Source: Acidobacteriota bacterium
GTDB taxonomy: Bacteria; Acidobacteriota; Terriglobia; Acidiferrales; UBA7541
Direction: 5' to 3'
DNA length: 32,255 nt
Assembly (NCBI GenBank): GCA_003223215.1
Contig: QHYH01000228.1
Coordinates: 1 to 32,255, forward strand
Below are positions 9,738-31,827 of the stretch, piece by piece. Position numbers and translations under genes: made by a program. The first letter of the stretch is position 1. The number at the start of each line of letters is the position of its first letter. A model generated the notes under the pieces. It searched no databases. It was not told the DNA's origin and worked only from the letters and a program-made list of their open reading frames with translations.

Positions 9738-10055
9738 CAGAGGTCTTAGCAAACAGCCACCTTCTCGCGCGTTTTAAGAAAATTTCTTGTGGGTCCTACT
9801 GGACATGGTAGCGGATCTACGAATCGCGAAATCGACTATGCTGCCCGGCACCTATGCGAGGACCTCAACCACATGCAGCCCGTAACCTTGGAACTGCAAC
9901 TCAAGAGCCGAAATGTGCCGCCTGCTCTTGAATCAGAAAACGGCCCGGCCGAAAACCCACAAGAAATTATTTTGGATTCTCCCTCGTGTAAGCGCTTATT
10001 TTTGTGGGACCTATGAAGACACGCTTTTCAGCGTGGCTGTTTGCTAAGACCTCTG
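9738..10055. mobile_element. 318-bp fold-back / MITE-like element
   Basis: Bounded by perfect 23-bp inverted repeats at 9738-9760 and 10033-10055 (CAGAGGTCTTAGC..., read inward). Inside them is a second perfect 14-bp inverted pair at 9781-9794 and 9955-9968 (AATTTCTTGTGGGT). A hairpin CACGCT-TTTC-AGCGTG at 10020-10035 overlaps the right terminus. I recognise no transposase. The internal ORF has no family resemblance. The element lies between gene debris and the TacA/TacT operon and ends 45 bp before that operon's promoter. No clear target duplication is visible. Confidence 0.7.
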
Positions 10056-10100
10056 TATGTAAAGGTCCATTCTGGATGGAAGCTTCAAATAATGGTGCTA

Positions 10101-10129
10101 TTGACTTGTCCGGCGATTCGCCGTACACT
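10101..10129 (+). promoter_or_regulatory. tacA/tacT-like operon promoter with operator in the spacer
   Basis: TTGACT (10101-10106) and TACACT (10124-10129) are separated by exactly 17 bases, close to the sigma-70 consensus. The spacer contains the palindrome CGGCGA-T-TCGCCG (10111-10123), ending next to the -10. A repressor bound there would block polymerase, which fits autoregulation by the antitoxin. Confidence 0.7.
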
Positions 10130-10151
10130 TCTGAGAGGTTGGGAGGAGACC

Positions 10152-10451
10152 ATGAGACGCGCTGCAGCCATTGATCGACGCTCACGGAAAGAGGAGCGTT
10201 TGGAGGCCCGGGTTACTCCGGAGCAGAAAAAAATGATCACGCGCGCGGCGGCTTTGCGCGGTTCTTCGGTGACGGAGTTCGTAGTTGCGAGCGCCCAACA
10301 GGCAGCGGCCGATGCGATCAAGGACTCCGAACTGCTCACGCTGCACGACGCGGCGCGCGACGTTTTTGTGAATGCGGTTTTGCATCCTCCCGCGCCCAAT
10401 GAAGAGGCGCGTAAGGCAGCAAAACGGTACAAGAAACAAATGGGTCGCTAA
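10152..10451 (+). CDS. DUF1778 (TacA-like) antitoxin
   Basis: 99-residue ribbon-helix-helix antitoxin of the DUF1778/TacA family. It would neutralise the GNAT toxin encoded next and repress the operon. The N-terminal DNA-binding part reads RLEARVTPEQKKMITRAAAL, then RGSSVTEFVVASAQQAA, as usual. The C-terminal tail (HPPAPNEEARKAAKRYKKQ) is the toxin-binding segment. The ATG at 10152 has a GGGAGGAG site ideally spaced. The gene ends at 10451 and the toxin frame starts at the next base. Promoter and a likely operator lie immediately upstream. Confidence 0.9.
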   Translation: MRRAAAIDRRSRKEERLEARVTPEQKKMITRAAALRGSSVTEFVVASAQQAAADAIKDSELLTLHDAARDVFVNAVLHPPAPNEEARKAAKRYKKQMGR

Positions 10452-10973
10452 TTGGCCGGCGAAGCAGAAAAGCCGCGTTTTGTTGTTGAGCCGCTCGGTT
10501 CGAAGCACGATCGAGCGGCTTTTTCCTGCGGGGTCGAGATTCTAGACGCCTACCTTCACAAACAGGCAGGCCAGGACCTAAAGAAGCGCGTCGCCGTTCC
10601 GTTTGTCATCACGCCGGACGGAACGACCATTGCCGGGTACTACACGCTGTCGCAATGCTCGGTACAACTGGACGAAATCCCCGCGGAGGTTGCGAAAAAA
10701 CTTCCCAAATATCCGATCGTCCCAGCGACACTTCTCGGCCGATTGGCCGTAAGCGTTGCATTTCGGGGACAGGGACACGGCGCCACGCTATTGATGGATG
10801 CGCTCTATCGAACCCTTCAGCACAGCAGGGAAGCGGCTTCCGCAAGTGTCATCGTCGACGCAAAGGATGCTGCTGCACTCCCGTTTTATACAAAGTATGG
10901 ATTTCTCGAGCTGCCCCGAATCGAGCGACGGCTCTTCCTGCCGATGGGTACCGTGGAACACCTCTTTCGATAG
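10452..10973 (+). CDS. GNAT acetyltransferase toxin (TacT-like)
   Basis: 173-residue GNAT protein of the TacT/AtaT-like toxin group, expected to acetylate aminoacyl-tRNA and stop translation. Typical features are AFSCGVEILDAYLHKQA near the start, VITPDGTTIAGYYTLS, the acetyl-CoA loop LGRLAVSVAFRGQGHGATLL (RGQGHG) and FYTKYGF, whose Tyr is the usual catalytic position. The start is a TTG directly after the antitoxin TAA, with no ATG at the expected place, so translation probably depends on coupling and would be low. Family length is normal and no disruption is seen. Confidence 0.88.
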   Translation: MAGEAEKPRFVVEPLGSKHDRAAFSCGVEILDAYLHKQAGQDLKKRVAVPFVITPDGTTIAGYYTLSQCSVQLDEIPAEVAKKLPKYPIVPATLLGRLAVSVAFRGQGHGATLLMDALYRTLQHSREAASASVIVDAKDAAALPFYTKYGFLELPRIERRLFLPMGTVEHLFR

Positions 10974-11696: not shown

Positions 11697-12761
11697 GCCG
11701 CCTCGCGCTCATAGTATTTCAGCAGGCCGCCCAGCCGCTCCCGACACCGCACCTTTTCCTGTTCTCCACGGACTGCTGGAGTTGGCAAAGGGAATAGCAA
11801 TACGTTGTTTTTGCCTTGGTGATTTCTCTCCTCATGATAGTGGGCTTCGTAGTGGCGCAGCGCGCGCGGCAAATGAGCCTTCGCCCAACAAGATCAGCTT
11901 CGCCAGGCATTCCTCCCTAACCGACCTTACCCAGCGTTCCGCATAGGCGTTCAGATTCGGACTTCTGGGCGGCAAGGCAAGGGTCTTCACACTCCCTGCT
12001 TCGATCACCTGACGAAACGATGAGCTGTATTTGCTGTCGTGATCATGCAGCAGGTACTTGCGATGGATCAGAAAACCAGAATCTTCCATCGTCACATTAC
12101 GCGCAATTTGTTCCATCCACTCTTGATCCGGATGATGTGTGATTCCGGCCAAGCATATCCTCCGGCTCTCCAAATGAATGAAAAACAGCACGTAGTACGT
12201 AATCAACCCTCTTAGCGTAAGCACTTCCACCGTGAAGAAGTCTGTCGCCGTCAACACCGCCATGTGAGCACGGATAAAGTCTTTCCAACTCGTCTGCTTC
12301 CGCTTGGGAGCCGGTGGAATATCATGGCGGCGGAGAATATTGCCCACCGTCTGATCCGAGAGCCGGTGACCTAGGTTGGCCATGGCGCCCACGATCCGGT
12401 CATAGCCCCACCCGGGATTTTCCTTCGCCATCTGCACCACCAACCGCTCGGTTTCCTCGTCAACTCGGGGACGACCCGAGGATTTGCGAAACTTCGATCC
12501 GTCGAACTTGTTGGCGATGAGCTTTCGGTACCAGGCCAGCAGCGTATCCGGTTTCGCGACAGCCGCCAATTCTTCCAAGACCTTCCGTTTGAGCCGGTGG
12601 GCGATCTCAGCCAACGTAGCTTTTTCGGCATCGGATAACAACAACCTGCCTTTGATTTGGGCTCTCAGGATGCGGTTCTCTGCGGCCAGATATTCGTTCC
12701 TGAGTAGTAGTTCCTGGTCTACGGTTCCGGTGATGTAAGCAAGCATGCGAGCCCAAATCAT
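11693..12761 (-). pseudogene. IS-B transposase (rve DDE), frameshifted near its end
   Basis: The ATG at 12761 follows a GGGAGG ribosome-binding site. The N-terminus ([20 protein letters not shown]) is followed by an HTH region and an integrase core: [11 protein letters not shown] (first Asp), [13 protein letters not shown] (second) and [16 protein letters not shown] (Glu). After [14 protein letters not shown] an extra base in a T run at about 11871-11873 shifts the frame. The conserved ending [20 protein letters not shown] continues in the other frame to the TGA at 11693. The N-terminal catalytic part is complete, so activity may be reduced rather than lost. The stop overlaps the start of the passenger gene. 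Confidence 0.85.
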
Positions 12762-20046: not shown

Positions 20047-21340
20047 TGTCTCTGGCGAATTGATACGGTGGCAGTGAAACGATCGGATCCGCGAAACGCG
20101 CTACGCTTCAGAACTCAAATACCGAATGATTTCGTTGGGAGCTTGTGCCGACGTTGACCGGATACCGCAGCGAGCGCGAGTCTTTGACAAATCAGGCAGC
20201 CACCGGGGTCTGATAGAGGGCTCGACAGTGTGGTTGCCAGCGAAACGAGTGGAGATTGGCTGGTGGCCGTGACGTGGGCGTATCCGGCGTTTGCCCTTCC
20301 AGCGAGTTATGGGTGCGATGGTTGTTGAAGTAGGTCCTGAAATCGAGCAGCTTGTCTTCGAGGTCTGCCGTCGTCCAGAACAACATGTGATCCAAGTATT
20401 CCCGCCGCAGGGAGCCGATCAGCCTTTCTACGAATGGATGGGACAGGGGGACGTAGGGGATGGTCTTGATTTCTACCGTCTTCAGTATCCGCAGATTGGC
20501 TTGCCATTGGTGGAACCGATAGAGCGGATCATTGTCAGAGCTGAGGTACTTCGGCATCCAGCATTGCCCACGAATGGCGCGGTTGAACATCCGACAGAGT
20601 GCGGCACCATCGACCGTTCCCGCATGCACGTCCAATGATCCGGCGCGTGAACTGATCCAATCCATGACCACCAGGACCCAGTGGGACCGCAAGGTGGCGG
20701 GCTCGCACCTGAATAGATCGATACTCCAGAGGCTGTCTTTCATATGCCCAAGGAAAGTCAGCCAGGAAGGACCACCGGAGTCCTGCCCCGGCCGGTAGCG
20801 CTGCGCGAGAATCCTGCGAACCACGTCTTTGTCGATTTGGATCTGAAACGCCAAGGCGATCGGTTGAGCGATTCGCGGACAGCCCCAGTTGGGATTCCGT
20901 TGTTTCCTTTCGACTACCGCCCGGATGAGCTCCGCACTCGGCCCTTTCGGGCCGGGCTTCCGACGGCGATTCGGGGAGAACAGCATCCGGTACTTTCCTT
21001 TGCTCAAGGCTTTATGAAGGGCTAGCAGTGTCGAAGGCTTCAGAACGATTGCGGCACGGAGCAGGCGAGTGGGACGCACCAAGAGCGCCATCAAGCCGGC
21101 GAGGATGCGGTCCGAGGTGCACAAATTCGGCGATCGTTGCCGGGATCGATTCACGATCAAGAGTTGGTGCTTGAGGATAAGGAACTCGGCAACTATGGAA
21201 CGGACACCGCCAGGACCGAGCAAGCGGGCCAGGGTAGCAATGAAATGGATAAACAGAATGACCAGATTGCTCATCGCAGAATCGTAGCAGGAAGGGAAAT
21301 CCCAAGGAAATATGGGCAAAACAACAATTCGCCAGCCACA
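20047..21340 (-). mobile_element. IS-A copy 2 (1294 bp)
   Basis: Complete insertion sequence with terminal inverted repeats TGTCTCTGGCGAATTG at 20047 and TGTGGCTGGCGAATTG on the minus strand ending at 21340, 14 of 16 matching. It carries one transposase gene. The left flank is the IS-B passenger gene and the right flank is a DinB gene, with no duplicated target bases, so the insertion was followed by a deletion or recombination that joined two loci. Confidence 0.85.
20192..21274 (-). CDS. DDE (rve-type) transposase of IS-A, copy 2
   Basis: 360-residue transposase starting MSNLVILFIHFIATLAR at 21274. The much longer open frame upstream reads through the IS end into DinB sequence. Catalytic residues are D186, D247 and E283, with DD35E spacing. 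A 5-bp tandem duplication (ATCCA twice at 20655-20664) together with a 5-base loss about 25 bases away replaces ten residues after D206 (WISSRAGSLD instead of QYTRRIIGFG in copy 1). The frame is preserved but a core strand is scrambled, so this copy is probably inactive. Confidence 0.85.
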   Translation of the reverse strand: MSNLVILFIHFIATLARLLGPGGVRSIVAEFLILKHQLLIVNRSRQRSPNLCTSDRILAGLMALLVRPTRLLRAAIVLKPSTLLALHKALSKGKYRMLFSPNRRRKPGPKGPSAELIRAVVERKQRNPNWGCPRIAQPIALAFQIQIDKDVVRRILAQRYRPGQDSGGPSWLTFLGHMKDSLWSIDLFRCEPATLRSHWVLVVMDWISSRAGSLDVHAGTVDGAALCRMFNRAIRGQCWMPKYLSSDNDPLYRFHQWQANLRILKTVEIKTIPYVPLSHPFVERLIGSLRREYLDHMLFWTTADLEDKLLDFRTYFNNHRTHNSLEGQTPDTPTSRPPANLHSFRWQPHCRALYQTPVAA

Positions 21341-21755
21341 CGAAGCGATGGCGCGAAGCATCTTTCGCGAAATCTTCTTCTGATACGGCCGTGTGCCGCT
21401 GGAGCCAGTCGGACCACGACATTTTCTCAAACCCCTTCCACAATTCACCGTTTACGGTTTTCCATACCTGGCGAACCTGTTCGTGCGACGGAATGGCGGC
21501 TTGGGACTTGTCGGGATTAGAGACGAAGGCGACATCGAACTCGGGATGAAACCGATCTCCGAGCCCCAACAGCGGCAGCATCGCGTCATGCATCGCCGTG
21601 AGATGTCCCCACAAGTAAAGCAGCCTGTTTCGACCCGGCGCTATTTCCCGCAGGACCACCTCGGACGAGAGTCCTCCAAAAAGCTTGTCCGCCCGGTCGA
21701 GTTGTGCCTTCCATACCTTCAGCCCGAGAGCCACATAAGAGCCTTCGTTTGTCAT
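21341..21755 (-). pseudogene. DinB-family protein, C-terminus removed by IS-A
   Basis: Encodes about 138 residues of a DinB-like four-helix-bundle metal-binding protein: LWGHLTAMHDAMLPLLGLG with a first His ligand, then EDFAKDASRHRF, after which the IS terminus begins. The final helix with the remaining metal ligands is lost. The ATG at 21755 follows an AGGAA site and lies 18 bases after the SnoaL-like gene, so this is the last gene of the efflux operon. The frame continues through the IS end for many codons, giving a chimeric tail. Confidence 0.75.
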
Positions 21756-21773: not shown

Positions 21774-22295
21774 CTACGGCAGGTTCACCGCGTCGAAACT
21801 CAAGTCATCGGAAGTTAGGGGGCCCCCGCTCTGCTGCTCGTCATAGTGATGCTCGTACACTACCCGCGAACCGTTCCATTTCCGGAGGGCCCGCCAAGTC
21901 ACCGTGCACGTTCTGCCGGACACGCCGACCAAGTCGAGCGTCCACGCGGAATGCGTCTCGCCTGCAACATCTCCAGGAATGGCGGTCTGTCGAATGGATA
22001 TCGATAAACCACCGACTTCGGCCATCACGTGAAGCGGAACCAGGAAGGTGGCCAAGAGTGAGCGCACTCTGTCCTTTCCACGAATCGGTTCTTCCGCGGT
22101 TTCGCTGCTTACCTCGATATCGTCGGCGTAAAAGGCCTCGAAGATCTCAAGATACTCTTCGAAGCTTTCGCTGATCTCAGCCCGGACGATCGCCGAGTTT
22201 AGGGCGCGTTCTCGAGTCCGAGAACTTGCGTATAGATCGCGATCAGAATAATCGCCGGCGACGAAGCTATGTTCCCTGGTCATTGCCCTGTCCAT
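21774..22295 (-). CDS. SnoaL-like / NTF2-superfamily protein
   Basis: 173-residue protein with a SnoaL/NTF2-like cone fold: EYLEIFEAFYADDIEVSSET, then EPIRGKDRVRSLLATFLVP and a late WRALRKWNGSRVVYEHHYD. Such proteins are ligand-binding or small enzymes; no catalytic set can be assigned. The start is uncertain between 22295 and 22283; the longer frame would overlap the efflux ORF, which ends at 22328. It sits between the RND pump ORF and DinB in one transcription unit. Its role with the pump is unknown. Confidence 0.7.
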   Translation of the reverse strand: MDRAMTREHSFVAGDYSDRDLYASSRTRERALNSAIVRAEISESFEEYLEIFEAFYADDIEVSSETAEEPIRGKDRVRSLLATFLVPLHVMAEVGGLSISIRQTAIPGDVAGETHSAWTLDLVGVSGRTCTVTWRALRKWNGSRVVYEHHYDEQQSGGPLTSDDLSFDAVNLP

Positions 22296-22327
22296 AGTTG
22301 GTTTTTGTTTCTGCCCTTCCAGCTCCC

Positions 22328-25300
22328 TCATTTCACCGCAGCGATGGACGGGTTGCTGCGTACGTCCCACCCGCCGCCAAGTGCGCGGAAGGTACGCACG
22401 GCAGCGCGGGCCGCATCCGCTCGGGTGCTCTCCACGTCATTTCGTGCAACAAGAAGTTGACTATCCGCGTTCAGAACGTCGGTCAGCGGAATTGCGCCGG
22501 CCTTGTAGGCCCGCTCTGAAAGATCGCGAGCCCGCGTAAGCGAGGTAACTTCACCTTGCAACTCCTCTAGGCGGACCTGCGTCTGCGCAAGCTCCATCAA
22601 CGCATTCTCGACATCTTCCGCGGCTCTCAAGGCGGCTTGCCGATACCCGGCAAGCGCTTCGGCATACGCGCCGCGCGATTGCGCGACTTCGGCTGCGACC
22701 TTTCCAAAATCGAAAAGCCGCCATCGCAGCGCTCCCGTCCCGATGGGCTGGAACGCTTTCCCGTTGAAAAGAGTGCCTCCGCTGGTGCTGTCGAAACCAA
22801 GCGCGCCGGAAAGCGAAACCTTCGGGTAGTAGTCCGAAATCGCAACACCGATTCGTTCGTTCGACGCGGCAAGCCGGCGCTCGGCCGCGATGATGTCGGG
22901 TCGGCGGCGCAGGACATCCAGAGGCTGGTCGGCACCGGTGATTGCGGGGATTCCGGGAATTGCGCCTGACTTGGAAAGCTCTTCGGCGTACGTTCCCGGC
23001 TGAGCGCCCATGAGGACGTCGAGACGGTTCAGCTGGGCTTCAAGGGCCACACGCAAGGAGGGCACCGTCGACTTGGCTTGCTTGAGAAGTGCTTCCGCCT
23101 GGGCAACTTCCCGATCGTCCGCCACTCCCACCCGTCGACGCACTTCGACTAACTCCAGAAGATGTGTATCGGTATCTATGAGTTGCTGCGCAACCGCAAG
23201 CCTCGCCTGATACTCCCTCACCTGAAGGTAGGCGTCCGCCGCCTCGGCGGCGACGGTGATTCGAGTTCCGACTTGGTCGGCCTGCGCAGCCTGGAGTTCG
23301 TCAGCAGCCGCAGCTTTGCCGCGGCGCAGCCCCCCGGAAAGATCGATTTCCCAACTCGCCGCAGCTCCAACTGTGTACTCACGTTGATCGCGGCTGTACC
23401 CGGGAAAACTATTCGCTACAGAACCTAGTGGACTCACGACGCTCTGGTGCAGAGCCGTGCCCGTCGCCTCCAAATCAGCCGTCGGCAGAAGTTGCGCGCC
23501 CGCCGCTGCTGCTGCCGCTCGCGCCTGGCGGACACGCGCAAAGGCAGCGGCAAGATCCAGATTTTGGTCCAGGGCGCGCTGCACGACAGTCACGAGCATC
23601 GGATCGTTGAAGCCTGTCCACCAACTGTCGAGAGGCGGTGCCGGAAATTCCGGCTTCGCCGCACTGGCCCCGACGAGATTGTGAAATGGAGCAAGATTGG
23701 TGGTGGGCTTCACATAGCGTGGACCCACGGCACAACCACCTGCAAATAGGCTGAAGGCAAGAACGATCGCCGTCGCTTTGAGCGCGGCTTGACTCAATTC
23801 GCGTTCCTTACGGTCACGGCCGAAATTGCGGATGAAAGTGTAAAAGGCGGGTGTGAAAAGAAGACCAAAGCAGGTCACGCCCAACATCCCGAACAGTACC
23901 GCCGTGCCCAGTGACCGCCGCATTTCGGCAGCTGCTCCCGTTGCGACTGCCAGCGGGGCAACCCCCAGGATGAACGCAAAGGACGTCATCAAGATCGGCC
24001 GGAGGCGCGTACGTGCGGCGTGCACGGCGGCTTCACCGGCGGCCGCGCCCTCTTCTTCTTTCTGCCGCGCGAATTCAACAATCAGGATCGCGTTTTTGGC
24101 GGCCAGGCCGACAAGTACGACGAAACCGATTTGTGCCAGGATGTCGATCGGCAAGCCGCGTGCCCGCAGGCCGCTTACCGAGGCGAGGAGACACATCGGC
24201 ACAATCAGAACGATCGCCATCGGCAACTTCCAGCTCTCGTATTGAGCCACGAGCACGAGGAACACGAAGAGGGCCGCTGCGCCGAAAACAGCCAGCGTGG
24301 GAGTTCCATGCTGCTGCTCCTGGAAGGAGAGATCCGTCCATTCGAACCCGATACCTTGCGGAAGAACGTGGTGGGCAAGCTCCTCCATGCGGAGCAGCGC
24401 GGTACCAGAGGCGACACCCGGAGCAGCGACGCCTTGGACCTCGGCGGCCGGAAAAAGATCGTAGCGCGGCACACGGTACGGGATCGTGTTGTCCTTCAAT
24501 TGTGCCACCGTCCCAATCGGCACCATTTCACCGGACGTATTGCGAACTTTCAGTCGCGTGATGTCCGGCTGGTTGCGTCTATATTGGCCGTCGGCTTGCA
24601 CGACCACTTCGTACGTCCTGCCCAGTAAGTTGAAGTCGTTCACGTATTGAGAGCCCAGATAGACTTGCAGCGTCGAAAACACGTCGGTCGGGGTGACCCC
24701 AACCTTCTCCGCCTTCACGCGATCGATGTCCGCATAGACGGAGGGTGATCCTGTGTTAAACAACGTGAACGCCCCGGCGAAATGTGGATCCTTGTTCGCG
24801 GCAGCGACGAGATCATTCGCCGCCCGCACAACGGCGTCCGAACCAAGCCCGGCACGGTCCTCCAGCATCATCTTGAAACCACCGGCACTGCCGAGGCCCT
24901 GTACCGGAGGAGGCGGAATGGTCAGCACACGCGCATCCTTGATCACGGAAAGACGCTCACGCAGGTCGGCCAATACTGTGTTCGCGTTTACGCCGGGAAT
25001 TTCATGGTTGTAGAGCGAGGGCAGGCTGGAAAAAATCGTCGCGGAATTCGACGCTACCGTCGATGTCGTCGCATCGAGGCCCGCGAAGGGCGCAACGTGT
25101 TCAACGCCGCGCGTAGTGAGGATGATATCGGTCGCCTGCTTCACTACCTCCTCTGTCCGTGCGAGCGTCGCTCCGGGAGGAAGCTGAACGATGGTGATCA
25201 GGTATCCCTGATCCTGCTCCGGAATGAAACCCGTTTGCGCTCGTGAGAACTCCAGCCCGGCAAGGCCGATCAGCGCGACGTAGATCACGAGAACAATAGC

Positions 25301-26938
25301 CACTCCTGCCACCAGACGGCGTGTCAGATTTCCATATCCGTTCGACAAATTCTCGAAGCCGCGATTAAACCAGCCAAACCCCGAATGGAGAAAACGACCC
25401 ACCAGGCCGTGCGACGAAGCACCTTGTGGATCGTGGTCTTTGAAGAGCACCGCGCACAGAGCCGGGCTCAACGTCAGCGAGACGAAGCACGATATGACTG
25501 TCGACGCTGCGATCGTCACGGCAAACTGGCGAAAGAACAGTCCGGAGATTCCCGAGAGGAAAGCAGACGGAACGAAAACGGCGCACAACGTGAGCGCGAT
25601 CGAAATCAGTGCTCCACCGACTTCGTCCATCGTCTTGTGAGCGGCATCCGACGCCGACATGCCGGAGCGCATATTGCGCTCGACGTTTTCGACAACAACG
25701 ATCGCGTCGTCGACGACGATGCCGACCGCGAGAACCAAGCCAAATAGCGAAAGATTGTTCAGTGATATCCCGAGCGGATAGAGAACCGCAAACGTCCCGA
25801 CGAGAGAGACCGGAATTGCGATCACCGGGATGATCGAGGCTCTCCAATTTTGGAGAAACAGGAACACGACGCCGAGCACGAGAAGGATTGCGATGAAGAT
25901 TGTGAGGACCACCTCGCGGACCGATTTGGCGATGAAGGTCGTCGGATCGTAGATGATTTTGTAATCGACGCCTTGGGGGAATTCCCTTTTTAGGTCTTTC
26001 ATCGCCGACAAGACTTCATGTTCAACCGCGAGCGAGTTTGCACCCGGCTGGGCGTAAATCAGGAGCGCCGTCGCGTCGCTGCGATCCATGTATGCAGTTG
26101 ATCCATAATCAGCGGCACCCACCTCGACGCGGCCGATGTCGCGCACCCGGGTCACCCTTCCTTGTTTATCCGATTTGACGACGATGTCACCGAATTGCTC
26201 GGGTGTGGAAAGCCTGCCGAGTGCCTCCACGTTGATCTGATAAGCCTCGTGCGCCGGGGCGGGCGGCTGATTCAGAATCCCAGCCGAGACCTGCAGGTTC
26301 TGGGCGCGCAGTGCCACGAGCACCTCACTGCCGTTGAGATTGTTCGCCGCAACCTTGTCGGGTTCGAGCCAGATGCGCATGGCGTACTCGCGGCCGCCCT
26401 GGAACTGCACATCTCCAACACCTTCGAGGCGCGCGAGAATGTCCTTTACGTGCAAGGTTGTGTAGTTTGAGAGATACAGGTTGTCACGCGAACTATCCGG
26501 CGAGTAGACGTGAATGGCCAGGAGTATGCTCGGTGTCGCCTTCCTCACTTGTACACCGAGACGCTGTACGTCTTCCGGCAACCGTGGCAAAGCGTCCTGG
26601 ACACGGTTTTGCGTCAGCATCTGTGCGACGTTCAAGTCGGTGCCGATGCGGAAGGTAACCGTGATCGTGAGCCTGCCGTCTCCGGTCGACTGACTGCTCA
26701 TGTAGAGCATGTTCTCGACGCCATTGATCTGCTGTTCGAGCGGCGTCGCTACGGTGCGCGACACCGTATCCGCGGATGCGCCCGGATACACCGTGGTGAT
26801 CTGCACTGTGGGCGGGACGATTTCCGGGTACTGTGCGACCGGCAGAATCGCGAGCGCACCAAGCCCGAGCAGTGTCACGAAAGCGCTTAGTACGATCGCG
26901 AAGCGGGGGCGTTCGATAAAGAAATGTGTCAGGCGCAT
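22328..26938 (-). CDS. Fused RND efflux pump (HAE1) and NodT-type outer-membrane factor
   Basis: A single 1536-residue ORF. Residues 1-1047 are a complete HAE1-type RND pump with N-terminal FFIERPRFAIVLSAFV, proton-relay Asp pair in VGIVVDDAIVVVENVERNM and the relay Lys in GLAAKNAILIVEFA. It ends with the twelfth helix at TPAFYTFIRNFG. A basic stretch (RDRKERELSQAALK) leads into a hydrophobic run and Cys1069 (SLFAGGC), a lipoprotein-type signal. A complete outer-membrane factor follows (AVGPRYVKPTTNLAPF to RTFRALGGGWD). These are normally separate genes. A TTG at 23797 after AAGGA could start the second part on its own. The ORF begins 14 bases after the adaptor gene. Confidence 0.9.
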   Translation of the reverse strand: MRLTHFFIERPRFAIVLSAFVTLLGLGALAILPVAQYPEIVPPTVQITTVYPGASADTVSRTVATPLEQQINGVENMLYMSSQSTGDGRLTITVTFRIGTDLNVAQMLTQNRVQDALPRLPEDVQRLGVQVRKATPSILLAIHVYSPDSSRDNLYLSNYTTLHVKDILARLEGVGDVQFQGGREYAMRIWLEPDKVAANNLNGSEVLVALRAQNLQVSAGILNQPPAPAHEAYQINVEALGRLSTPEQFGDIVVKSDKQGRVTRVRDIGRVEVGAADYGSTAYMDRSDATALLIYAQPGANSLAVEHEVLSAMKDLKREFPQGVDYKIIYDPTTFIAKSVREVVLTIFIAILLVLGVVFLFLQNWRASIIPVIAIPVSLVGTFAVLYPLGISLNNLSLFGLVLAVGIVVDDAIVVVENVERNMRSGMSASDAAHKTMDEVGGALISIALTLCAVFVPSAFLSGISGLFFRQFAVTIAASTVISCFVSLTLSPALCAVLFKDHDPQGASSHGLVGRFLHSGFGWFNRGFENLSNGYGNLTRRLVAGVAIVLVIYVALIGLAGLEFSRAQTGFIPEQDQGYLITIVQLPPGATLARTEEVVKQATDIILTTRGVEHVAPFAGLDATTSTVASNSATIFSSLPSLYNHEIPGVNANTVLADLRERLSVIKDARVLTIPPPPVQGLGSAGGFKMMLEDRAGLGSDAVVRAANDLVAAANKDPHFAGAFTLFNTGSPSVYADIDRVKAEKVGVTPTDVFSTLQVYLGSQYVNDFNLLGRTYEVVVQADGQYRRNQPDITRLKVRNTSGEMVPIGTVAQLKDNTIPYRVPRYDLFPAAEVQGVAAPGVASGTALLRMEELAHHVLPQGIGFEWTDLSFQEQQHGTPTLAVFGAAALFVFLVLVAQYESWKLPMAIVLIVPMCLLASVSGLRARGLPIDILAQIGFVVLVGLAAKNAILIVEFARQKEEEGAAAGEAAVHAARTRLRPILMTSFAFILGVAPLAVATGAAAEMRRSLGTAVLFGMLGVTCFGLLFTPAFYTFIRNFGRDRKERELSQAALKATAIVLAFSLFAGGCAVGPRYVKPTTNLAPFHNLVGASAAKPEFPAPPLDSWWTGFNDPMLVTVVQRALDQNLDLAAAFARVRQARAAAAAAGAQLLPTADLEATGTALHQSVVSPLGSVANSFPGYSRDQREYTVGAAASWEIDLSGGLRRGKAAAADELQAAQADQVGTRITVAAEAADAYLQVREYQARLAVAQQLIDTDTHLLELVEVRRRVGVADDREVAQAEALLKQAKSTVPSLRVALEAQLNRLDVLMGAQPGTYAEELSKSGAIPGIPAITGADQPLDVLRRRPDIIAAERRLAASNERIGVAISDYYPKVSLSGALGFDSTSGGTLFNGKAFQPIGTGALRWRLFDFGKVAAEVAQSRGAYAEALAGYRQAALRAAEDVENALMELAQTQVRLEELQGEVTSLTRARDLSERAYKAGAIPLTDVLNADSQLLVARNDVESTRADAARAAVRTFRALGGGWDVRSNPSIAAVK

Positions 26939-26952
26939 GTTTTGGTCTCTCT

Positions 26953-28194
26953 TTAGTCCTGACCGCCATCAGAACGGATCGTGCCGTCCTGGGTGGCGAC
27001 TTTGGTTCCGGGCGCGGCGTGCAGTAGCCCATCCAAGATGACTCGGTCGTTCGGCGCGAGCCCGGACCGGATCACTCGCAAACCGTCGCGAATCTCCCCT
27101 ACTTCCACTCGCTTTGGCGCGACCCTCCCGTCCGCCGAAACCGTCATAACCATGTGTTGCGATTGGTCAGGCAACACTGCAGTGTCCGGCACGAGGAGCG
27201 TCGGTGAAGGAGGAGCGACGACCAGTCGAACACGAGCGAACAGGCCAGGAGTCAAAACCAGATCGGAATTCGCAACCATAGCCCTGGCGTGGATTGTGCC
27301 GCTCGAACGGTCAAGGACATTGTCCAGGAAATCGAATACGCCGCTTCGCGCGTACTGATTGTCGTCGCCGAGCGCAACCTCAACCTTTTGGACATGCCCT
27401 CCCTTGAGGGGCCCGCGATACTTGGAGTACGCGAGGAAATCAGACTCGCTCATATCAAAGTCAAGGTAGATCGGATCAAGCGAAACGAGCGTCGCGAGCA
27501 GTGTCGTCGGACTCGTCGCTGTGCGACTGCCAGCAATTAAATTGCCTACCGAAACGAGATGCGTGCCCATGCGCCCTGTGAACGGCGCCGTAATCCGGCA
27601 ATGGTCGAGGTCGAACTGTGCATCGCGGATTCGGGCTTTGGCCTCTTCGACAGCAGCGCGCGCCGACCGCTGATCGGATATGCGCTGGTCAACGTTTTCG
27701 ACTGATCCAGCATTGCTTTGCTCCAGATCCTTGGCACGGTCAAGTTGCCGTTCAGCCAGTTGCAGTCGAGCCGCAGCAACCTCAAGCTGGGCGTTCGCTT
27801 CGGCAAGTGTGATTTCGTAGGGTCGAGCATCAATTGTGAAAAGGAGGTCGCCCTTCCGAACAATGTCCCCGTCCTTGAAAAATATTCCAGTAAGCGTACC
27901 GCCTACTTGCGCGCGCAGTTCGACTTGCGAAACCGCCGCGAATTGGCCAAGGAAGCCCAACCGCGTATCGATGTCTTGCGCCAGCGGCTTGCTCACCACG
28001 ACTTGTGGAAGTGCAGCAGGCGCAGCACCGGCGGAACTTCCACTCGCCCCAGGCGAATACTTGAGCCATGCACCCACAAACACTATCCCTGCCAGCCCAG
28101 CGGCAACCCACAGCTTGGCCGACGTTCGTCCACTGATCCGCCGCCCCTTGTTATCCGCCCGCTCGTCCGACGCCAGTTCCGTTTCCGTCAGCAT
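26953..28194 (-). CDS. RND efflux periplasmic adaptor (membrane-fusion protein)
   Basis: 413-residue adaptor that would link the inner-membrane pump to the outer-membrane factor. A single N-terminal helix (LWVAAGLAGIVFVGAWL) anchors it. The lipoyl halves flank a hairpin: VELRAQVGGTLTGIFFKDGD before, a coiled coil around LEVAAARLQLAERQLDRAKD, and ITAPFTGRMGTHLVSVGNLI after. A beta-barrel and membrane-proximal domain with VPDTAVLPDQ complete it. The ATG at 28194 has AGGAG upstream; the frame start at 28236 would place coding sequence over the likely operator. It is the first structural gene after the Rrf2 regulator. Confidence 0.92.
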   Translation of the reverse strand: MLTETELASDERADNKGRRISGRTSAKLWVAAGLAGIVFVGAWLKYSPGASGSSAGAAPAALPQVVVSKPLAQDIDTRLGFLGQFAAVSQVELRAQVGGTLTGIFFKDGDIVRKGDLLFTIDARPYEITLAEANAQLEVAAARLQLAERQLDRAKDLEQSNAGSVENVDQRISDQRSARAAVEEAKARIRDAQFDLDHCRITAPFTGRMGTHLVSVGNLIAGSRTATSPTTLLATLVSLDPIYLDFDMSESDFLAYSKYRGPLKGGHVQKVEVALGDDNQYARSGVFDFLDNVLDRSSGTIHARAMVANSDLVLTPGLFARVRLVVAPPSPTLLVPDTAVLPDQSQHMVMTVSADGRVAPKRVEVGEIRDGLRVIRSGLAPNDRVILDGLLHAAPGTKVATQDGTIRSDGGQD

Positions 28195-28220
28195 TTTCTT
28201 AGTTCTCCTGATGTACTGTT

Positions 28221-28243
28221 CTTTTAATATGCACAATTAAAAG
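28221..28243. promoter_or_regulatory. Palindrome between regulator and adaptor genes (candidate Rrf2 operator)
   Basis: CTTTTAAT and ATTAAAAG form a perfect eight-base inverted repeat around a seven-base centre, between the Rrf2 stop and the adaptor start. The minus strand reads AATTGTGCATATTAA. A related half (AATTGTGTTTTTAA) lies upstream of the Rrf2 gene. No T run follows, so a regulator site is more likely than a terminator. Confidence 0.55.
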
Positions 28244-28252
28244 CAAAAAAAG

Positions 28253-28681
28253 TCAATGCGTCTTGTGCCGGATCTGACCAACCAGATTAGCCAAGGTGAT
28301 TTTCGCGAGCGAGCTCTCGAAGCTGTTCTGAGCCTGAGAAAGTAGCTCCGACATGCACTCCTTGAGGTGGCAGCTGACCGGACACCTCTTTTCCACAGGA
28401 TAGGAGTGAATCGCAAACGCCGGTGGTGCCGCACTTGCACGGTATATGTCGAGCAGCGTGATTTGTCGCGGAGAACGCGAAAGCATGCTCGCTCCGCTCT
28501 TGCCCCGCTTTGTTACGACCAAGCCCGCTTTCGAGAGCTTGGAGAGCGACTTTCGAACGAAAGTAGGATCGGCGTTCACACTGTCGGCCAGGATCGTCGA
28601 CGAGATTTCCTCGCCGGGGAAGTAACCCAGGGCAGCCATAATGTGCGCGGCAACCGCAAATTGGACGCTTTTCACTGACAT
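28253..28681 (-). CDS. Rrf2-family transcriptional regulator
   Basis: 142-residue winged-helix regulator of the Rrf2 family (relatives of IscR, NsrR and the YwnA-like group). The N-terminal part reads SVQFAVAAHIMAALGYFPGE, the recognition helix lies in NADPTFVRKSLSKLSKAGLV and the wing in RGKSGASML. Cys100, Cys104 and Cys109 (RCPVSCHLKEC) could bind an iron-sulfur cluster or sense oxidation, although spacing differs from IscR. The ATG at 28681 follows AGGAG closely. It heads the efflux operon on the same strand, and two AT-rich sites upstream and downstream fit self-control and control of the pump. Confidence 0.88.
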   Translation of the reverse strand: MSVKSVQFAVAAHIMAALGYFPGEEISSTILADSVNADPTFVRKSLSKLSKAGLVVTKRGKSGASMLSRSPRQITLLDIYRASAAPPAFAIHSYPVEKRCPVSCHLKECMSELLSQAQNSFESSLAKITLANLVGQIRHKTH

Positions 28682-29932: not shown

Positions 29933-30566
29933 ATGAGTTCCGACCCGTACGTTTATCCGGGTACAACGGTCCTCAAAAACATTCCTGGGATTCGTAATCA
30001 GGAAATACTAGACCGCTTTGAAGCGGACCGAGTGGGACAACGGTCCTTAGAGCTTATAGAACGTCCGCTATCCGGGCTCTTCGATATTGAACACCTGCAA
30101 GGAATTCACCGTTACCTGTTCCAAGATGTCTACGAATGGGCCGGAGACTTTCGAACGGTCGACATCGCAAAAGGGAATTCATACTTTGCCCACGTGCCTT
30201 ACATCGAGTCTACGTTGAAAGGCCTATTTTGGGGAATTGTCCGAGGAGCGACATCTTCGTGGCTTAAATCAAGAGCGGTTTGCCAGTCGCTTGGCACAGA
30301 CTCTAGGAACACTGAACGCCGTGCATGCTTTTCGAGAAGGAAATGGAAGAGCGCAGCGAGAATTCGTGCGAGAGCTCGCGTACAAGAACAGCTATTGGAT
30401 TGATTGGAGCAAAGTTTCACGAGAGGAACTGTACCAGGCGAGCGACGCAAGTTTCATGCGTGGTGACAACACGTTTTTCGAGAAGTTGCTAAGGCGAGCA
30501 ATCGAGCCGATTGACCGAGACAAGCTCCCACCACCGGGCGCAAGGAGGACCTTGCGCGTGACGTGA
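29933..30566 (+). pseudogene. Fic-family AMPylase (VbhT-like toxin), frameshifted
   Basis: Fic enzymes transfer AMP to target proteins. The N-terminal part (PGIRNQEILDRFEADRV, FDIEHLQGIHRYLFQDVYEW then AGDFRTVDIAKG) and the catalytic motif HAFREGNGRAQREF, with the active His encoded at 30324, are both present but in different frames. One extra T in the T run at 30227-30230 separates them; removing it gives GLFGELSEERHLRG and a full protein of about 210 residues. As written the toxin would lack its Fic motif. Sequencing error is possible. Confidence 0.8.
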
Positions 30567-31307: not shown

Positions 31308-31586
31308 GTGTTCTCTTGGGATGCGCGCAAAGCCCTCGCTAACCTCAAGAAGCACGGAGTCTCTTTTGAGGAGGCGGCTACTGTCTTCGCCGATCCCAAT
31401 GGGCTGGACTACGATGACATTGAACACTCGGAGTCGGAGCTTAGATTCGTACGAATCGGTTTCTCCCCTATCGGCCGAATCGTCTTTGTTGTTTATACGC
31501 GACGAGTGAAGTATGACAAAGAAACGATTCGCATCATCAGCGCACGCCAGGCAACGCGCAAAGAACGCGCGGCATATGCCGGATAG
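31308..31586 (+). CDS. brnT: BrnT-family toxin
   Basis: 92-residue BrnT ribonuclease toxin, a RelE-fold protein that cleaves mRNA. The family signature is clear: FSWDARKALANLKKHGVSFE, EEAATVFADPNGLDYDD, then RIVFVVYTRR and IRIISARQATRKERAAY. GTG at 31308 matches the conserved start; there is no ribosome-binding site, consistent with the promoter placing the transcript start at the same point. An ATG two bases upstream is in another frame. The 3' end overlaps the antitoxin gene by 74 bases. Confidence 0.88.
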   Translation: MFSWDARKALANLKKHGVSFEEAATVFADPNGLDYDDIEHSESELRFVRIGFSPIGRIVFVVYTRRVKYDKETIRIISARQATRKERAAYAG

Positions 31587-31827
31587 CATGCTCGACCTGA
31601 CGGATATTCCCGAAGCGACAGATGCTCAGCTCCGCCGTGCTCGCCGTGTCGGGCGCCCATCTACTGGAAACGCTAAACAACTGATCGCCATCCGGATCTC
31701 TCCGAAGGTGCTCGCGCGCCTCCGCCGCCTCGCCGCCAAACAGCACAAGCCCTACCAAACCTACATTCACGAACTCCTCGAACAAGCCGCCGGCAAGAAG
31801 GTCGCCTATTGCTCTCACATAAAATAA
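31513..31827 (+). CDS. brnA: BrnA-family antitoxin
   Basis: 104-residue ribbon-helix-helix antitoxin for BrnT. MPDSMLDLTDIPEATDAQL is the toxin-contacting segment; LIAIRISPKVLARLRRLAAK then HKPYQTYIHELLEQAA is the C-terminal DNA-binding domain. The ATG at 31513 lies inside the toxin gene; a later in-frame ATG at 31576 would give a shorter protein starting at MPDSM and cannot be excluded. Toxin-first order is normal for BrnTA. The antitoxin would repress the promoter at 31272. Confidence 0.8.
   Translation: MTKKRFASSAHARQRAKNARHMPDSMLDLTDIPEATDAQLRRARRVGRPSTGNAKQLIAIRISPKVLARLRRLAAKQHKPYQTYIHELLEQAAGKKVAYCSHIK

Follow-up and report, generated by a model that had tools for sequence, protein, structure and literature searches.

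Translation of the window (the whole 32,255-nucleotide stretch of Acidobacteriota DNA analysed here) reveals a single open frame of 1536 codons at 22328-26938(-), without interruption, in which two efflux proteins follow one another: an HAE1-type RND pump (residues 1-1047; 23798-26938(-)) and a NodT/OprM-type outer-membrane factor (OMF; residues 1069-1536 and the stop codon; 22328-23734(-)). Residues 4-1036 match Pfam ACR_tran (1038.7 bits); residues 5-1037 match NCBIfam RND_permease_1 (HAE1, NF000282) over its full length, at 1290.6 bits vs. a cut-off of 1250; the pump half also exceeds the cut-off of TIGR00915 (HAE1; 1097.3 vs. 940.35 bits); and residues 1061-1523 align with positions 2-460 of the 460 of outer_NodT TIGR01845 (301 bits vs. 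a cut-off of 210.05), Pfam OEP matching the same half. The HME pump profile TIGR00914 gives 318 bits against a cut-off of 701.45, and the sequence relatives of the pump with solved structures include 7wlv, MexB and AcrB. As both halves match full-length profiles, the frame contains two complete proteins, and we reject a long frame that arose by chance. The preliminary description of this locus, which reported an uninterrupted 1536-codon frame joining a full pump to a full NodT-type factor, is thus correct on both counts, by translation and by profile scores above the curated cut-offs.

The fused gene is preceded by an ORF for a periplasmic adaptor of the HlyD/AcrA type (26953-28236(-); Pfam HlyD_D23 and HlyD_3) and, 16 bases before that ORF, by the apparent first gene of the operon, an Rrf2-family regulator (28253-28681(-); Pfam Rrf2, 92.2 bits). 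In each of the nine named loci compared (L038, L041, L042, L043, L045, L052, L056, L085 and L103), a related adaptor is encoded upstream of the pump, and regulator, adaptor and fused gene apparently form a complete tripartite operon. The end of the fused gene is overlapped by an ORF at 21774-22370(-) that has no Pfam match and an inner ATG near 22295, from which it would start after the OMF. Flanking the efflux operon, and found repeatedly in the contig, are transposase-like genes (rve and/or HTH_32) at 20192-21755, 2-1072 and 11832-12761; two of these ORFs, 20192-21448 and 21012-21755, overlap in different frames. The flanking transposases, taken together with pumps of 76-83% identity in Proteobacteria, suggest that the operon moves between distant bacteria. 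Elsewhere in the window, a TacA-like antitoxin followed by a GNAT acetyltransferase (10041-10973) makes up a typical toxin-antitoxin pair, and near the contig end there are a BrnA-like antitoxin (31513-31827) and a short ORF whose match to Fic is sub-threshold (29933-30403).

The two halves are joined by a linker of 21 residues (1048-1068; 23735-23797(-)) that reads as a lipoprotein signal peptide by lipobox pattern and hydropathy and leads directly to Cys1069 (23732-23734(-)), the predicted acylation site and the first residue after a predicted signal peptidase II cut. The lipobox fits a PS51257-like pattern, and by sequence pattern the Cys stands directly after a lipoprotein signal as in OMFs of the TIGR01845 type, here internally and not at the N-terminus. 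The signal begins exactly at a TTG codon (Leu1048; 23795-23797(-)), a candidate internal start for the OMF, and seven bases before this codon lies a Shine-Dalgarno-like AAGGA (23805-23809(-)), whose duplex with the anti-Shine-Dalgarno sequence amounts to −6.1 kcal/mol. Translation shows no Met between residues 1048 and 1069. Both features of the junction noted in the preliminary description, namely a Cys preceded by a signal-like stretch that lacks Met and a TTG at 23797 with AAGGA seven bases upstream, therefore stand.

Comparison with relatives indicates where this internal start came from. Among 80 named loci, the most similar pumps with an adjacent OMF are those of Paraburkholderia LEh10 (83% identity), P. 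caledonica (83%), Caballeronia (82-83%), Acidisoma (81%), Pseudomonas SLFW (77%) and Pseudomonas Bc-h (76%); Rhizobiales dw_265 and Bradyrhizobium lablabi have pumps of 81-82% identity without an adjacent OMF. A scripted test found no fusion among the 80 loci, many of which lack an adjacent OMF or are cut. The two-gene operons of P. caledonica, Acidisoma and Pseudomonas sp. SLFW (pumps 77-83% identical) share with the window the order adaptor, pump and OMF, but differ in having a pump stop codon and a separate OMF start. In seven of the 13 separate junctions examined (L038, L041, L042, L045, L056, L085 and L125), the pump stop and an ATG in frame with the OMF share bases as ATGA; AAGGAG precedes this ATG in L038, L042 and L085, although in L042 and L085 the OMF may truly start further down. 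The AAGGA and TTG of the window occupy the same place as the AAGGAG and ATG of these unfused relatives; from this shared position we infer that the TTG is the ancestral OMF start and that a small change in length joined the two frames. The fusion in the window looks young, as pump and OMF are separate genes in its closest relatives that have the OMF next to the pump (pump 76-83%). No second fusion was found among the loci translated from its own genus (36 genomes, of which 27 gave a match at E<=1e-200); together with the unfused close relatives, this means that the fusion is not one proven by time. A nearer relative, L124/L177 (pump 78-81%, OMF 81%), likewise has pump and OMF unfused, and its own frames contain breaks; such breaks occur within the pump gene of two close relatives, L103 (Caballeronia glathei) and L177.

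An alternative is that an indel introduced in sequencing or assembly has joined two genes that overlap briefly in the actual genome, as they do in the relatives. The distance from Shine-Dalgarno sequence to start differs between the window and the AAGGAG...ATGA relatives by a number of bases not divisible by three; the internal start is intact; and two other RND pump genes of the same genome (L219 and L220) have broken frames, one of which, with 158 bases for 53 residues, fits a slip of a single base; the other lacks about 55 bases. Against such an artefact, homopolymers of seven or more are absent near the junction and the window contains no N, both broken pumps may be true pseudogenes, and the same fusion is present in other genomes, in one case (G330) on a contig of 6.8 Mb. 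We consider an artefact improbable and the frame in the window probably real, with a confidence that would be higher if one of those other pump genes did not fit a single-base slip.

The fusion is not confined to this genome. The search for it in related genomes that the preliminary description proposed covered 399 genomes of the same class, 237 of one family and 396 of the phylum, and yielded at least 15 further stop-free frames in 14 genomes; with the window, this makes at least 16 HAE1-OMF frames, all checked by translation, from 15 genomes within that class or phylum (G000, G386, G330, G059, G340 with two, G102, G291, G188, which is cut by a contig end, G400, G635, G766, G785, G888, G889 and G975). 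These counts are lower bounds and give no rate, as they come from the best-scoring matches and from the subset of loci that was translated. Pfam confirmed OEP in the six latest fusions. Thirteen extra loci, taken because their match pointed to a long frame or to have them checked, were translated, of which two are fused (G889 and G975) and ten have a stop soon after the pump; G074 was left out of the count, its pump frame being lost before the end of the pump. The view that the fusion is an oddity unique to the genome of the window is rejected by its occurrence across class and phylum. Two overlapping genes at the junction, which the preliminary description held would speak against a fusion if all homologues had them, are indeed found in several of the closest relatives, but not in all homologues.

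A quick-method tree (LG+G4) was built from 87 pumps whose genes adjoin an OMF; it includes ten fusions and not the six found later. It requires at least six changes between the fused and separate states, also when only starred branches are counted, and does not tell six gains from fewer gains combined with losses. A single fused lineage is accordingly unsupported, though losses are possible. The sister of the window on the tree is the unfused L041 (support 93); likewise, L122 pairs with the unfused L056 (97) and L123 with the unfused L125 (82). One clade is entirely fused (L126, L173 and L128), with L126 and L173 being two copies in one genome.

The fusions share an export signal; most have no strong internal ribosome site. 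All 16 linkers resemble export signals, as read by pattern, hydropathy or eye: 11 are of the lipoprotein type with a Cys equivalent to Cys1069 in a lipobox, and five (G766, G785, G888, G889 and G975) are of the signal peptidase I type, with a hydrophobic core and a small-residue site recognized by eye. Net positive charge precedes the hydrophobic core in all ten HAE1 linkers scored. The HAE1-OMF fusions with a signal-peptidase-I-like linker include loci L244, L245, L246, L253 and L255, with OEP by Pfam. We scored ribosome sites crudely, as the anti-Shine-Dalgarno pairing of the best in-frame ATG, GTG or TTG located 15-42 codons before the Cys (in the six later fusions, before either the Cys or the putative type I site), after removing identical pumps and dropping the 18 of 87 rows that lacked a clear Cys motif. 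Separate genes have a median of −7.4 kcal/mol, and 48 of 59 reach −5 kcal/mol or better. The fused genes on the tree have a median of −2.95, and only two of ten reach that level (the window at −6.1 and the second G340 copy at −5.7; Fisher p = 3e-4); with G635 (−6.5) and G975 (−5.8), four of all 16 fusions do so (p = 5e-5 vs. separate genes), these p values serving as a guide only, since related rows are not independent. Random positions in the pump have a median of −2.3, with 15% of 710 at −5 kcal/mol or better. In G975 the candidate start is a GTG that lies within the hydrophobic core. No ATG, GTG or TTG occurs 15-42 codons before the site in G766 and G889; the other 14 fusions do have one, and genes with a weak Shine-Dalgarno sequence may start without one.

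A signal that is retained after the internal start is lost is what a cut precursor predicts. The alternative is that the window still holds two genes in function: the OMF would be made from the TTG by its own ribosome site, and the read-through chain would be a tolerated by-product. The AAGGA, its spacing of seven bases from the TTG, its pairing of −6.1 kcal/mol and its homology to the AAGGAG...ATG of unfused relatives all fit this alternative, as does a signal that starts right at the TTG. However, in a frame with no stop, a ribosome reaching the end of the pump always continues into the OMF, so that the fused chain has to be handled in any case, and a strong internal ribosome site is absent from 12 of the 16 fusions. 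We regard this alternative as unlikely. The preliminary description had left two routes of release, by signal peptidase II or by independent translation from the TTG: the recurrence of the fusion, the signal in 16 of 16 fusions and the absence of a strong site in 12 of 16 favor the signal peptidase as the general solution, whereas the TTG route is also intact here, and both routes may operate in the window gene.

Our proposed mechanism begins with the pump and OMF of a tripartite efflux operon, recently fused in frame. The C-termini of AcrB-type pumps are cytoplasmic. The chain would insert as a pump of 12 helices whose C-terminus stays on the cytoplasmic side; given this location and the net positive charge before the core, the core would insert N-in/C-out, and the basic-hydrophobic signal would become a thirteenth segment that ends at the cleavage site. 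Lgt would then acylate Cys1069 and LspA would cut before it, releasing a lipoprotein OMF that travels to the outer membrane and leaving the pump with a short tail; in the type I-like fusions, signal peptidase I would free the OMF instead. In the window gene, the ancestral Shine-Dalgarno sequence and TTG probably yield additional free OMF; with so good an internal start, cleavage is not required for this gene. The preliminary description also suggested that a polyprotein gives 1:1 supply; a strict ratio is not to be expected here, as the TTG start provides a second source of OMF. We assign a probability of about 0.57 to this reading as a whole, i.e. a recent in-frame fusion whose pump-channel precursor would be cut by signal peptidase, with extra free OMF probably made from the TTG.

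In principle, an uncut chain could function as a trimer in which pump and channel are covalently joined; since both parts are trimeric, their ratio would fit. In OprM and CusC, the lipid-anchor end of the OMF lies at the outer membrane. In the window gene, the hydrophobic segment is followed directly by the lipid-anchor Cys as the first residue of the OMF part, and one chain could hardly span the periplasm from that end; moreover, an uncut chain would have no need to keep export signals. We consider a covalent trimer highly improbable.

A parallel to the proposed precursor exists among the metal pumps of Bacteroidota. Sinomicrobium has two CusA-type pumps in frames of 1459 and 1474 codons that run into an OMF-like part; of the 100 genomes from its family, 64 gave a match at E<=1e-250, and among the matches listed all but three reach into the OMF part and none has a stop. 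Pump-OMF fusion is common among these metal pumps. The linkers of the 31 best-scoring loci (L183, L184 and L190-L218) all combine a net positive stretch with a hydrophobic core, and all have a Q after a small residue, a count that is partly built in, as the sites were located by searching for A/G/S-Q. An ATG precedes the core in 16 of the 31 linkers and is lacking in 15; any ATG, GTG or TTG is present in 20 and absent in 11. Like the window, these genes encode pump and then OMF in one frame (~1440-1490 codons) with a signal-like linker; unlike it, they belong to the metal pump class (CusA/CzcA, HME-RND), have a type I signal before the Q and are common in the family, whereas the window fusion is of the HAE1 drug-pump class, has a lipoprotein signal and looks young. 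The window gene may work like the CusA-type fusions, but is not a member of that group. A further parallel is fbcH of Bradyrhizobium, a cytochrome b-cytochrome c1 precursor that is cut at an internal signal: here too a polytopic membrane protein is followed by an internal signal, and signal peptidase cuts the product, but fbcH serves a respiratory complex, is processed by signal peptidase I and involves no lipoprotein step. The Q sites of the Bacteroidota linkers agree with the Q-rule described for Bacteroidetes in PMC5837995. Two plasmid records (Spirosoma oryzicola and Chryseobacterium balustinum) treat a frame of this kind as a single coding sequence, named 'CusA/CzcA family heavy metal efflux RND transporter', and the architecture is therefore already known to databases; the CusA/CzcA name stands under 23 of the 25 matches listed, with another CzcA name in one and none in one. 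As these two records illustrate, annotation as a pump alone makes the channel part of such genes easy to miss.

In conclusion, our results raise an evenly balanced prospect that bacteria repeatedly turn tripartite-pump operons into polyproteins processed by signal peptidase (LspA or LepB), possibly fixing the ratio of supply. Making an inner-membrane pump and its outer-membrane partner as one chain would then be a general mode; the parts of the open-access literature consulted (including PMC8277102, PMC5837995, PMC4827864 and PMC11213822) contain no description of RND-OMF fusion or processing. If so, an internal signal placed after a 12-helix transporter serves as a substrate of signal peptidase II, and an envelope-spanning pump is built from a polyprotein. 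The fusions offer natural cases in which to ask whether pump and channel are supplied in matching amounts and how a lipoprotein signal functions when it is not N-terminal.
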